Of a DNA stretch of 51,033 bases, positions 3,883 to 6,774 are shown in pieces. The position numbers and the translations under genes are program-made. The notes under the pieces were generated by a model. It was given only the letters and a program-made list of their open reading frames with translations, ran no database searches and was not told the origin of the DNA. This stretch comes from Streptomyces rochei. Its GTDB lineage: Bacteria > Actinomycetota > Actinomycetes > Streptomycetales > Streptomycetaceae. The number at the start of each line of letters is the position of its first letter. Position 1 is the stretch's first letter. The DNA lies in the NCBI GenBank assembly GCA_002155895.1, contig MUMD01000063.1:1-51033 (forward strand), read 5' to 3'.

Positions 3883-4275
3883 CTACGGGCCCTCGACCGG
3901 CAGCCCCGCCGCCCGCCACGCCTGGAACCCGCCGATCAGATCGGTGGCCCGGTGCAGCCCGAGACGGTGCAGGGACTCCGCCGCCAGGCTGGAGGCGTAC
4001 CCCTCGTCGCAGACCACCACGACACGCAGGTCATGACCCGTGGCCTCGGGAAGACGGTGGCTGCCCTGCGGATCCAGGCGCCACTCCAGCTCGTTGCGCT
4101 CCACCACCAGGGCGCCGGGGATCACACCGTCCCGTTCCCGCAGGGCGGCGTACCGGATGTCGACCAGCACGGCCGTGCCGGCCTCGGCGGCGTCGTGGGC
4201 GTCGCGCGGCCCGATCCGCTGATAGCCGCCGCGCACCCGCTCCAGCAGCGCGTCGATTCCGATCGGCTCGCTCAC
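3883..4275 (-). CDS. Rhodanese-like sulfurtransferase
   Basis: Single-domain rhodanese of 130 residues, a cytoplasmic sulfur-transfer enzyme using a persulfide on cysteine. The catalytic loop VVVVCDEGYASS places the active Cys at about residue 89; the N-terminal AVLVDIRYAALRERDGVIPGAL is the family's first motif. The GTG start at 4275 overlaps the stop of the cysteine dioxygenase gene by 4 bases (GTGA), so translation is coupled. Together the pair handles cysteine oxidation and sulfane sulfur. Expression is probably governed by the promoter and Cys-rich leader upstream of the dioxygenase gene. Confidence 0.92.
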   Translation of the reverse strand: MSEPIGIDALLERVRGGYQRIGPRDAHDAAEAGTAVLVDIRYAALRERDGVIPGALVVERNELEWRLDPQGSHRLPEATGHDLRVVVVCDEGYASSLAAESLHRLGLHRATDLIGGFQAWRAAGLPVEGP

Positions 4276-4847
4276 TGCCAGTCCTCCGGGCGCTCGACCT
4301 GCTCCAGGCGCAGGACATGGCCGCTGCGGCTGTAACGCCGGATCCGGGGCAGGGGCGGATAGTAGGCGTGCACGGAGACAGCGTGCACCTCGCGCGACTC
4401 GTTGAGCACCTCGTGCACATGGTGCCGGCCGAAGGCGCGCCCGCTGCCGGCGGGCAGCCGGCGTTCCCGGTCCACGTCGTCGGTGAGTTCCAGGGTCTTC
4501 CATCCGTCGGTGGGCAGACGGGCGGCGAGCGCGTTCTCCCTGAGTTCGCCCGCCGCGGTGACGAAGGCACCGACCGACTCCGCGTGGTCGTGCCAGCCGG
4601 TGCCGGTACCGGGCGGCCAGCCGATCAGCCACGCCTCGCTGCCGCCGGGACCGGCCAGCCGCACCCAGGTGCGGCCCTGCGGGTCGAGCGGGAGCCCGGC
4701 GATCAGCTCGGTGTCGGCGGCCGTGCGCCGCGCGAAGTCGAGGAGTTCGGCCTGCGTGGGCGCGGCGGTCGCCGGGGACGAGGCCGCGAAGACGGAGGAG
4801 GACGCGGAGACGCGGGAGGAGAAGGCAGGGGAGGAGGAGACAGACAC
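4272..4847 (-). CDS. Cysteine dioxygenase family protein
   Basis: Cupin-fold, non-haem iron enzyme family that oxidises L-cysteine to cysteine sulfinate. The first cupin motif reads PPGTGTGWHDHAESVGAF, with His86 and His88 as iron ligands; the second reads GRHHVHEVLNES, supplying the third His (142, 143 or 145). Length is 191 residues. The GTG start at 4847 is chosen because AGGACGG lies 5 bases upstream; residues 1-30 are Ser/Ala-rich and poorly conserved in kind. It is followed by a rhodanese with a 4-base overlap and preceded by a 15-codon leader ORF with three Cys codons. A thiol dioxygenase acting on another thiol substrate remains possible. Confidence 0.9.
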   Translation of the reverse strand: MSVSSSPAFSSRVSASSSVFAASSPATAAPTQAELLDFARRTAADTELIAGLPLDPQGRTWVRLAGPGGSEAWLIGWPPGTGTGWHDHAESVGAFVTAAGELRENALAARLPTDGWKTLELTDDVDRERRLPAGSGRAFGRHHVHEVLNESREVHAVSVHAYYPPLPRIRRYSRSGHVLRLEQVERPEDWQ

Positions 4848-4921
4848 GGATACCGTCCTGAGGGTTCGCGAAGGCGCGCGGCGGCACGTCGAGCGGCACG
4901 CGCGGGGGAAGTGAGGCGAAG

Positions 4922-4969
4922 TCAGCAGGACGGACGACACACGCAGCCCGCATAGCGGACGAGGTCCAT
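4922..4969 (-). CDS. Cys-rich leader peptide (putative attenuator ORF)
   Basis: A 15-codon ORF, MDLVRYAGCVCRPSC, ends 74 bases before the cysteine dioxygenase start. It has a near-ideal ribosome site (GGAGGG, 5 bases before ATG) and begins about 40 bases after a predicted transcription start. Three of its last seven codons are Cys. It resembles the short 'putative leader peptides' annotated upstream of sulfur-metabolism genes in Streptomyces, and the Cys-rich attenuation ORFs studied in mycobacteria. I infer that ribosome progress at the Cys codons sets expression of the dioxygenase/rhodanese pair. Between it and the gene lies a GTGCCGC direct repeat that could form alternative structures. 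Confidence 0.75.
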   Translation of the reverse strand: MDLVRYAGCVCRPSC

Positions 4970-5015
4970 ATGGACCCTCCGCCACAGGCGCGCAAAGGTG
5001 TCGGTCACGTTCCGG

Positions 5016-5044
5016 AGTACACCACGGCGGTGTGGGTCGGTCAA
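5016..5044 (-). promoter_or_regulatory. Promoter of the leader ORF / cysteine dioxygenase operon
   Basis: On the minus strand TTGACC (5044-5039), a 17-base spacer and TGTACT (5021-5016) form a good housekeeping sigma-factor promoter. Start of transcription would be near 5009, leaving about 40 bases before the leader ATG at 4969. Confidence 0.6.
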
Positions 5045-5142
5045 CTCACCGTCACCATGCGGACGGCGGGGCCGGCCGCGACGGATCGCCACCGACGCGG
5101 CCGTCGTCCAGGGGCCGCGGAGGCGGACCGGCGGACGACCGG

Positions 5143-6774
5143 TCAGCGGGATCCGGCCGCCGCTCGCGCCTCCGCGTCCTCGTCGCTGGGTGTGTCGGTC
5201 GTGTCCGTCGCCGCCCCGCCGAGGGCCGCCTCAGCCGCCGCGTACAGGTCGGCCGGCCGCACGCCGCTGAACGCCGAGACCAGGTGGCCGTCGGGCCGCA
5301 CCAGCAGCACGGTATGGGCGGCGGCACCCGGGTACGCCTCGGCGACGAGCAGTTCGGCGCGGTGCGGCAGCGCCGTCACCGCCGCCGCCAGCCGGGGCAT
5401 GATCCCGGCGGTCACCCAGTGCTTCCGGTCCCACACCCCCGTACCCGGCGCGATCAGCACCACCAGCAGCGACCCGCGCCCGAGCCGGTCCCGCAGCCGC
5501 ACGAACGTGCCGTCCTCGGCCGTGACCCGTACGTCGGCGACCGGCGATCCCGGCGGTGTCCCGACGGCCGTCTCCCCCGCGAGGGGCCCCGGCGTGAGCG
5601 GCGAATCGGCGTACGCCCCCGGCGCGCCCAGGGCTCCGCGCCCCAGGTGACCGTCGGCGAGCAACGCGTCATGGCCGCGCGACGAGCCGGGGACGTAGGA
5701 ACGCAGGCCCCCGCCGCCGCGCAGCAGCGGAAGGACCTGGTCGGCGGCGCGCAGCCGTGCGGCGATCACCGAACGCCGCTCCTCCTGGTAACTGTCGAGC
5801 AGCGCCTCGCGCGGCCCGTGGTGCCAGGCCAGGGCCAGCTTCCAGGCGAGGTTGTCGGCGTCCCGCAGCCCCTCCTCCAGACCCTGCGTGCCCAGCGCGC
5901 CCAGGAGATGGGCCGCGTCCCCGGCGAGGAACACACGGCCCACCCGCCAGCGGCGGGCCAGCCGGTGGTGGACGGTGTGGACACCGGTGTCGAGGAGTTC
6001 GTACGACGGAGTCACCCCCTCGGCCCAGCCGGTGAGGGTCTCACGGACGCGGTTCACCAGGAGTTCCGGAGTGACCAGGTCCTTCCCGGGCGGCAGCAGC
6101 CAGTCCAGGCGCCACACACCGTCCGGCAGCGGGCGGCCGACGACCTCTCCCGCCGAGGGACCGGACGTACGCCAGGGCGGCATCCGGTGGAGCAGCGCCT
6201 CGTCGGTCCACGGGAGTTCCGTGCGCAGCGTGGCGACGGCGTATCGTTCCACCGCAGTGCGGCCGGGGAAACGGATGTCCTGGAGCTTGCGCACGGTGGA
6301 GCGGGGCCCGTCGCAGCCGACCAGATAACTGCCGCGCCACCAGGTGCCGCCCGGCCCGCGGGTGTGGGCGGTGACGCCGGAACGCTCCTGCTCGATACCG
6401 TCCAGACGGCTGTCGACCGCGACCTTCACCAGTGACTCGCGGGCGAGCGCCGTGCGCAGGACGCCGGTCAGTTCGTGCTGGGGGAGGTGCAGCGGCGCGG
6501 GATCGGCGTCATCGAATTCGACCTCGCGCGTCACCTGCTTGCGCCGCATGGACCGCCATCCGGCCCAACGGCACCCCAGCCCCGCCAGGCGGACGCCGGT
6601 CAGCCGCTCGACGAGGGCGACGGTGTCCTCGCGCAGGACGACGGTGCGCGCGGCGCGTGGTTCGTCCTTGCCCGGCCCTTCGTCGAGGACGACGCACGGC
6701 ACCTCCTGCCGCGCCAGCGCCAGGGCGAGCGTGAGCCCGACGGGCCCCGCTCCGGCGACGATCACCGGGTCCAC
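5143..6774 (-). CDS. FAD-dependent aromatic-type monooxygenase
   Basis: Class A flavoprotein monooxygenase of the UbiH/PheA/TfdB kind, which hydroxylates aromatic or polyketide substrates using NAD(P)H and O2. It opens with the FAD dinucleotide motif VIVAGAGPVGLTLALALA (residues 4-21), has a middle YLVGCDGPRSTVRK segment (DG motif) and the second FAD motif VFLAGDAAHLLGALGTQGLEEGLRDADNLAWKLA, then a C-terminal thioredoxin-like region as in phenol hydroxylases. Length is 543 residues. I chose GTG at 6774, preceded by AGGGGG; an upstream ATG at 6864 overlaps the likely -10 region. The gene lies behind the gluD terminator and is probably monocistronic. Its substrate cannot be read from the sequence. 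Confidence 0.88.
   Translation of the reverse strand: MDPVIVAGAGPVGLTLALALARQEVPCVVLDEGPGKDEPRAARTVVLREDTVALVERLTGVRLAGLGCRWAGWRSMRRKQVTREVEFDDADPAPLHLPQHELTGVLRTALARESLVKVAVDSRLDGIEQERSGVTAHTRGPGGTWWRGSYLVGCDGPRSTVRKLQDIRFPGRTAVERYAVATLRTELPWTDEALLHRMPPWRTSGPSAGEVVGRPLPDGVWRLDWLLPPGKDLVTPELLVNRVRETLTGWAEGVTPSYELLDTGVHTVHHRLARRWRVGRVFLAGDAAHLLGALGTQGLEEGLRDADNLAWKLALAWHHGPREALLDSYQEERRSVIAARLRAADQVLPLLRGGGGLRSYVPGSSRGHDALLADGHLGRGALGAPGAYADSPLTPGPLAGETAVGTPPGSPVADVRVTAEDGTFVRLRDRLGRGSLLVVLIAPGTGVWDRKHWVTAGIMPRLAAAVTALPHRAELLVAEAYPGAAAHTVLLVRPDGHLVSAFSGVRPADLYAAAEAALGGAATDTTDTPSDEDAEARAAAGSR

Follow-up and report, generated by a model that had tools for sequence, protein, structure and literature searches.

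A conserved cysteine-codon leader upstream of a Streptomyces cysteine dioxygenase operon: a candidate translation attenuator

The window analysed here, the whole 51,033-nt stretch of Streptomyces rochei DNA, carries a 28-codon leader ORF with Cys codons ahead of a cysteine dioxygenase operon. Conservation of the leader, synonymous codon constraint and complementarity to the dioxygenase ribosome-binding site strongly indicate, at the level of sequence, that this leader controls the operon, in agreement with an earlier note that had proposed a Cys-rich regulatory leader here. The arrangement looks like a known class of ribosome-operated cysteine switches placed on an unexpected target. On balance, we favour, with limited confidence, a cysteine-responsive translation attenuator in which low cysteine raises dioxygenase expression, the direction opposite to that of the earlier note.

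Leader ORF, promoter and conservation

The elements lie on the minus strand in the 5'–3' order promoter, 28-codon leader ORF, Shine–Dalgarno (SD) region, cysteine dioxygenase gene and rhodanese-domain gene. Codons are numbered from GTG 5008, giving Cys22, Cys24 and Cys28.

5039–5044, minus: −35 element TTGACC; TTGAC begins 35–37 nt before the leader start in 116/129 loci
5015–5020, minus: −10 element GTACTC; at −12 to −7, GTACTC in 83/129 and CTACTC in 20/129 loci (either hexamer in 103/129)
4922–5008, minus: leader ORF, 28 codons plus stop, GTG start, MTDTFARLWRRVHMDLVRYAGCVCRPSC; in 130/131 evaluable Streptomyces loci; NF042934 score 36.1 bits
4922–4969, minus: 15-codon ORF of the earlier note, internal ATG with GGAGG upstream; ATG in 111, CTG in 12, GTG in 5 and CTC in 1 of 129 loci
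4941–4993, minus: hairpin inside the leader ORF; z −3.48, 0/200 shuffles as stable
4943–4945, minus: Cys22 (TGC), first invariant Cys codon, predicted closed stall; Cys in 129/129; mean SD opening energy 10.4 kcal/mol
4937–4939, minus: Cys24 (TGT), predicted open stall; Cys in 129/129, always TGT; mean SD opening energy 6.5 kcal/mol
4925–4927, minus: Cys28 (TGC), last sense codon, not invariant; Cys in 115/129
4926–4933, minus: CCGTCCTG, leader codons 26–28, 5' arm of the putative SD-sequestering helix; exact complement of CAGGACGG over the full 8 nt in 93/129
4916–4920, minus: TTCGC downstream of the leader stop, able to pair with GCGAA ahead of the SD; TCGC at most 10 nt from the stop in 111/129, full 5-mer in 75/129
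4865–4869, minus: GCGAA, 3' partner of TTCGC; GCGA near the SD in 127/129
4853–4860, minus: CAGGACGG, dioxygenase SD region, 3' arm; SD partner 2–10 nt before the leader stop in 120/129 folds
4272–4847, minus: cysteine dioxygenase (type I), GTG start 4847; PF05995, E 1.3e-50
3883–4275, minus: rhodanese-domain protein; PF00581, E 1.2e-13

The leader stop (4922) and the dioxygenase start (4847) thus place a short ORF upstream of a sulfur-metabolism gene. The target had been named as dioxygenase then rhodanese, and the Pfam matches downstream of the leader bear this out; the rhodanese start overlaps the dioxygenase stop as GTGA, as read from the sequence.

Loss of the leader across relatives had been set beforehand as the refutation test, and the leader proved to be kept. 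The Streptomyces sample, defined as genomes classed in the same genus as the window's genome, comprised 132 loci with an orthologous dioxygenase, the window included, and 42 of 68 newly listed Streptomyces orthologue places lie outside it. A motif search found the leader in 129/132 loci; the other three (L033, L098 and L121) were left out of the 129 aligned leaders. One of them, L033, has the leader, with Phe for Leu at codon 16 and the same two Cys (Cys22 and Cys24), while L121 lacks it beside the dioxygenase and is the sole miss among the 131 evaluable loci; L098, at a contig end, was left out of the conservation count, and L147, a duplicate of L046, was dropped.

Cys22 and Cys24 are present in all 129 aligned leaders. 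The motif pattern itself fixed codon 24 as Cys and allowed only Cys or Ser for codon 22, and the invariance holds because the only evaluable loci that it missed were L033, with the same Cys residues, and L121, with no leader. Trp9, Arg10, Val12, His13, Asp15, Leu16, Arg18 and Tyr19 are likewise found in 129/129, and 49/129 leaders have an additional Cys near codon 5. Judged from these alignments, leader conservation is far beyond chance. The genome that holds L121 has at another place (L206, G011 contig 1) a leader of the dioxygenase type, complete with its spacer and ribosome-binding site, and no dioxygenase was seen beside it.

The leader differs in its start from the one first described. 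The 15-codon ORF, MDLVRYAGCVCRPSC, is present on the minus strand from ATG 4969 to TGA 4922, but the conserved ORF is longer, from GTG 5008: a start codon, ATG in 45 and GTG in 84, lies 8–10 codons before the invariant Trp in all 129 aligned leaders, and ATG 4969 was rejected as the leader start on the CTG, CTC and GTG codons found at its position. The GGAGG described as its ribosome site does end 6 nt before ATG 4969, but lies inside the coding region, where the leader hairpin hides this internal GGAGG–ATG. Similarly, the promoter is real in the sense that it is conserved, but it belongs to GTG 5008 and not to ATG 4969, the TTGACC/GTACTC pair ending 6 nt before GTG 5008. From this spacing, the leader mRNA is probably leaderless, with its transcript start at or beside GTG 5008. 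A scan with a strict sigma-70 consensus matched no promoter site.

A GTGCCGC direct repeat, suggested as a possible basis for alternative folds, exists at 4899–4893 and 4887–4881; it is doubled in only 2/129 loci and present at all in 19/129, and was therefore rejected as a conserved element.

Codon constraint and predicted masking of the ribosome-binding site

Constraint extends below the peptide level to synonymous codon choice. Relative to usage in the same dioxygenase genes, the leaders strongly prefer AGG for Arg11 (119/126, expected 0.03), CAT for His13 (109/129, expected 0.10), TGT for Cys24 (129/129, expected 0.25), TCC for Ser27 (125/127, expected 0.41) and CCG for Pro26 (108/121, expected 0.51), although probabilities computed from such shares overstate significance because species are treated as independent. 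The 5' part of the leader forms the strong hairpin at 4941–4993, with the rare codons AGG, CAT and TAT kept; a covariation test of this hairpin within Streptomyces gave no support beyond shuffles.

The 3' part of the leader can, in folding predictions, mask the dioxygenase ribosome-binding site. Its last codons (4933–4926, codons 26–28) are the exact complement of the SD region (4860–4853), and the flanking TTCGC/GCGAA match together with a variable GC-rich hairpin completes the element. Partition-function folds place the SD partner with its centre 2–10 nt upstream of the leader stop in 120 of the 129 Streptomyces loci and leave the SD closed (mean unpaired 0.058, median 0.002). When the final 12 nt of the leader and its stop are compared with the SD window, perfect complementary runs of at least 7 nt occur in 98/129 dioxygenase loci, versus 1/58 rows (57 distinct) of other NF042934 leaders used as a control, in which gene starts were assigned by script, L006 and L190–L197 (missed by the motif) are not included and one duplicate is left (L176 = L216).

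The helix region of the window is modestly more stable than shuffled sequences (z −2.02, 6/200 as stable). Across the Streptomyces alignment, the helix pairs in 94.6% of cells versus 25–58% when the arms are slid; alignment A1 omits 37/129 loci (spacer >100 nt, N or near-duplicates). Two-sided changes within the genus were found in 0/8 pairs, and column shuffles were not beaten, since both arms hardly vary; the case for the helix therefore rests on arm conservation, the slid controls and changes outside the genus. Two other candidates were rejected: no terminator-like site (stem plus T run), as expected of a transcription attenuator with an intrinsic terminator, occurs at positions 4700–5200, and no Rfam riboswitch or leader matched up to E 1 at positions 4200–5300.

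Outside Streptomyces, the leader motif was found in 27/31 loci of the same family, and in L274 and L275, two of the four loci without a motif match, a degenerate, Cys-containing version is visible by eye. The SD partner lies at the leader end in 7/24 evaluable sister-genus loci (L251–L254, L260, L263 and L278), and 17/24 keep the leader with the SD partner elsewhere in the fold, so SD sequestration cannot explain all of them; sister-genus SDs were assigned by script, some of them uncertainly, and L255, L265 and L273, for which no SD was found, were left out of the 24. At L259 the complementary letters are present, yet the SD finds its partner elsewhere than at the leader end. At L250, L256–L258, L261 and L268 the leader peptide is conserved while the SD partner in the fold is not at the leader end, and another mechanism may act there.

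Compensatory changes do occur in these more distant loci. Both L251 and L252 have U–A replaced by C–G on both sides (CCGTCCC with GGGACGG), and in L230 a U–A pair has become G–C with both sides changed. L230 and L231, from another family, encode M..GIRLVRRTHLDTVR(F/Y)VGCLCC with an ATG 6–7 nt after TATACT; a search with the L230 peptide gave no NF042934 match up to E 1. When the full-length L230 RNA folds freely, 0.25 of the SD pairing goes to the leader arm and the rest to the spacer; with the 5' part of the leader covered, the leader arm holds the SD at 0.99–1.0.

Ribosome position was modelled with the front edge at +12 nt, counted from the first base of the codon in the A site, following toeprint geometry. 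Over the 129 loci, the predicted mean SD opening energy is 11.2 kcal/mol without a ribosome, 12.8 kcal/mol with a ribosome just before the arm (11–13 before the arm is covered) and still 10.4 kcal/mol with Cys22 in the A site, where the SD stays closed. It falls to 6.5 kcal/mol with Cys24, and to 6.4 kcal/mol with Cys28 or the stop, in the A site. In these predictions for Streptomyces, sequestration is eased by a ribosome at Cys24 or Cys28 and not at Cys22, which puts the switch point between the two invariant Cys codons. The predicted mean SD accessibility follows the same order (0.05 without ribosome, 0.11 at Cys22, 0.21 at Cys24 and 0.22 at the stop), but the rise from 0.05 ends at 0.22, as the SD pairs with alternative partners; the states are better separated by opening energies than by partition-function accessibility.

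The distant loci can be read in the same terms. The three Cys positions of L230, which has an extra Cys right after the Cys24 position, give predicted SD opening energies of 12.3, 8.8 and 6.5 kcal/mol. L278 keeps a single Cys, at the Cys24 position, with a different sequestering stem, and its opening energy falls from 11.9 to 4.6 kcal/mol with that Cys in the A site, given a ribosome-binding site (GGTGG) and start that are script-assigned and uncertain.

Direction of the response

In the favoured attenuator, the SD would be closed on ribosome-free RNA and also when a ribosome has halted at Cys22 or upstream of it, whereas a ribosome at Cys24, Cys28 or the stop would block the helix and make the SD about 4–6 kcal/mol easier to open. 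When charged tRNA-Cys is limiting, ribosomes would pause at Cys24 and Cys28, keeping the SD open, so that cysteine limitation would increase synthesis of the dioxygenase and the overlapping rhodanese. This is the direction that would be expected for sulfur-supply genes with related leaders.

For expression data we turn to S. coelicolor SCO5772, which we take to be the recA-linked dioxygenase gene and which is equated with the present gene by annotation and gene order; work by Dominy in 2006 reportedly found dioxygenase activity for both S. coelicolor proteins. SCO5772 is called a putative cysteine dioxygenase in PMC3087709. In Table 1 of PMC4991794, its mRNA rises 8.0-fold under 0.15 mM H2O2 together with SCO6094–6102, SCO4164–4165, SCO2910–2912 and SCO3035, the risers including sulfur-assimilation genes. 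These data are mRNA levels under one condition, and the same paper states that no gene was up-regulated under H2O2 in an hbpS–senS–senR mutant, which weakens the argument: a transcription regulator may be the cause without the leader. Elsewhere, cysI, cysA and cysM are described as diamide-induced regardless of NdgR (PMC4340878).

The position of the opening Cys and the H2O2 co-induction together favour low cysteine as the activating signal over the reversed logic of the earlier note, in which fast translation through the Cys codons was expected to favour expression. The corresponding gate, with plentiful cysteine letting ribosomes pass Cys22 and reach the leader end to open the site, and shortage stopping them at Cys22 with the site closed, would suit the catabolic role of the dioxygenase; induction of a cysteine-degrading enzyme by cysteine shortage is metabolically surprising, and Cys22, the first stall and a predicted closed one, is a poor design for a starvation-on switch. 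Cys22 is also invariant in 129/129 leaders, a stall at the Cys near codon 5 of 49/129 leaders is predicted to be closed too, and a minimal stochastic model with Cys22 alone gives a monotonic shut-off. In feather-grown Streptomyces, supplied with Cys-rich keratin, PMC7181669 reports two dioxygenase genes up 50.2-fold and 8.3-fold, which could fit this opposite sign, with cysteine abundance raising expression. Against it, a stall at the equally invariant Cys24 is predicted to be open and to lower the SD opening cost, the Cys22 position of L278 is not Cys and its only Cys is the opening one, L230 has an additional Cys directly following the Cys24 position, and SCO5772 is co-induced with sulfur-assimilation genes in PMC4991794. 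We consider the reversed gate unlikely.

Both invariant codons would have a role in a band-pass cysteine sensor, with little dioxygenase at plenty, most at moderate limitation and shut-off at severe starvation. In such a device a Cys22 stall would sit flush with the closed stem, a Cys24 stall would have melted most of it, and Cys22 would serve as a safety catch against a cysteine-destroying enzyme when cysteine runs out. With assumed rates, the stochastic model gives an open fraction of 0.14 for fast, 0.64 for moderate and 0.07 for very slow Cys decoding, and a plain starvation-on switch when Cys22 is removed; very severe starvation should, on this modelling, shut the gene through a Cys22 stall just short of the stem. 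As a full account of the leader, we hold the band-pass sensor to be a tentative idea of low probability.

The peptide itself might act. In an arrest peptide, for which TnaC and SpeFL are parallels among small-molecule-responsive leaders, R..HxDLxR..GCxC would halt the ribosome near Cys24 on free cysteine or another thiol and so open the site. Such a reading would account for non-Cys residues as conserved as the Cys (Trp9 to Tyr19 above), which a pure codon sensor does not need, and for recurrence of the HxDLxR core in leaders of unrelated genes, a core that was, however, part of the search pattern. Nucleotide-level constraint (AGG, CAT and TGT) nonetheless explains part of the peptide conservation, and the H2O2 co-induction in PMC4991794 does not suggest opposite signs for the dioxygenase and the sulfur-assimilation genes, leaving the arrest peptide, in our estimate, less probable still. 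Simple translational coupling or mRNA protection, in which translating the leader would serve only to keep the mRNA open or stable, the Cys codons being incidental, would fit the predicted lower opening cost for a ribosome at any codon from 24 to the stop and the modelled open fraction of 0.14 without any Cys delay, but is quite improbable given Cys at codons 22 and 24 in 129/129 leaders and the recurrence of NF042934 leaders before sulfur genes.

Relation to known leaders and to the second dioxygenase

With 36.1 bits against a cut-off of 27, the 28-aa leader passes the curated threshold of NF042934, 'putative leader peptide' (cis_reg_atten), so that the NCBI pipeline could name the peptide; longer frames score 33.5–35.9 bits. 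The window's genome has five NF042934 matches above the cut-off, preceding the dioxygenase, a ThiS-family gene, a nitrite/sulfite reductase, a sodium:dicarboxylate symporter and a sulfatase, and a sixth at 26 bits, just below it (L006), of the leader type that precedes a rhodanese-domain sulfurtransferase in relatives. Across these genomes, with one example scanned per target type, the other targets are ThiS-family, nitrite/sulfite reductase, rhodanese, sodium:dicarboxylate symporter, sulfatase, luciferase-like monooxygenase and NMT1-like binding-protein genes.

Cys24 is the Cys position common to other NF042934 leaders, from which the dioxygenase leader differs in its cysteine-degrading target, its extra invariant Cys22 and its SD-sequestering end. 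An SD partner at the leader end was found in 0/19 ThiS-type rows (18 distinct) and 0/3 binding-protein leaders, and partially in 2/17 sulfite reductase leaders (L177 and L186; SD 0.38 and 0.29 unpaired). Three of six monooxygenase leaders (L159, L160 and L199) have the SD partner at the leader stop. On these folds, the monooxygenase leaders are a possible second case of the same SD-sequestering anatomy.

The closest functional precedent is mycobacterial: by its title, work of Canestrari et al. from 2020 reportedly describes polycysteine leaderless sORFs that act as cysteine-responsive attenuators. Compared by title and citation, these resemble the present leader in being a leaderless Cys-codon ORF, as is probable here, and differ in that the target here is catabolic. 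NF042933 (Ms5788A) scores 17.5–18.3 bits against this leader, below its cut-off of 45. In the ermC and cat attenuators of antibiotic resistance genes, the 3' part of the leader sequesters the SD until a ribosome held in the leader releases it, as is proposed here, although the signal there is an antibiotic and not an amino acid. Control by the mycobacterial polycysteine sORFs is termed translation attenuation in PMC13236596. Short ORFs with Cys-codon runs before actinobacterial cys operons were described by Seliverstov et al. (2005; PMC1262725), with conserved terminator hairpins absent from the Mycobacterium Cys leaders; in the excerpted text, their candidates are Mycobacterium and Propionibacterium cys operons and Bifidobacterium cbs, and not Streptomyces or cysteine dioxygenase. 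The metL leader reported for the S. lividans metNIQ operon ends CMCRRMCAF (PMC8079986) and may be a cysteine leader; it gave no NCBIfam match. No description of a leader for cysteine dioxygenase was found in the literature searched, which covered few subscription papers. The kind is thus known, as Cys leader peptides act as translation attenuators in mycobacteria and the peptide belongs to NF042934; new here are the cysteine dioxygenase target, the SD-sequestering anatomy and the two-Cys geometry.

A second Streptomyces dioxygenase, about 40% identical to this one, has a different leader ORF ending in a Cys-codon run in 13/16 loci by script (L234–L247; 71–149 nt before the ribosome-binding site, e.g. 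...ARCSCCCCSGC). By inspection, a Cys-rich ORF of related type also lies at L240, which is not among the scripted 13; L232 instead carries an NF042934-like ORF, and at L233 no leader ORF is clear. Two example peptides of this second type gave no NCBIfam match. Moving the ribosome along the leader lowered the opening energy by more than 1 kcal/mol in 2/13 loci (L242 and L246) and not in the remaining 11, so that opening energies over the 13 loci did not reveal a mechanism like that of the first dioxygenase.

Taken at face value, the leader places a cysteine-degrading enzyme under a leader type whose other targets in these genomes are mostly sulfur-supply genes. One possibility is that these dioxygenases contribute to sulfur supply or to redox balance when cysteine is limiting; the other is that a single leader chemistry can drive opposite responses.
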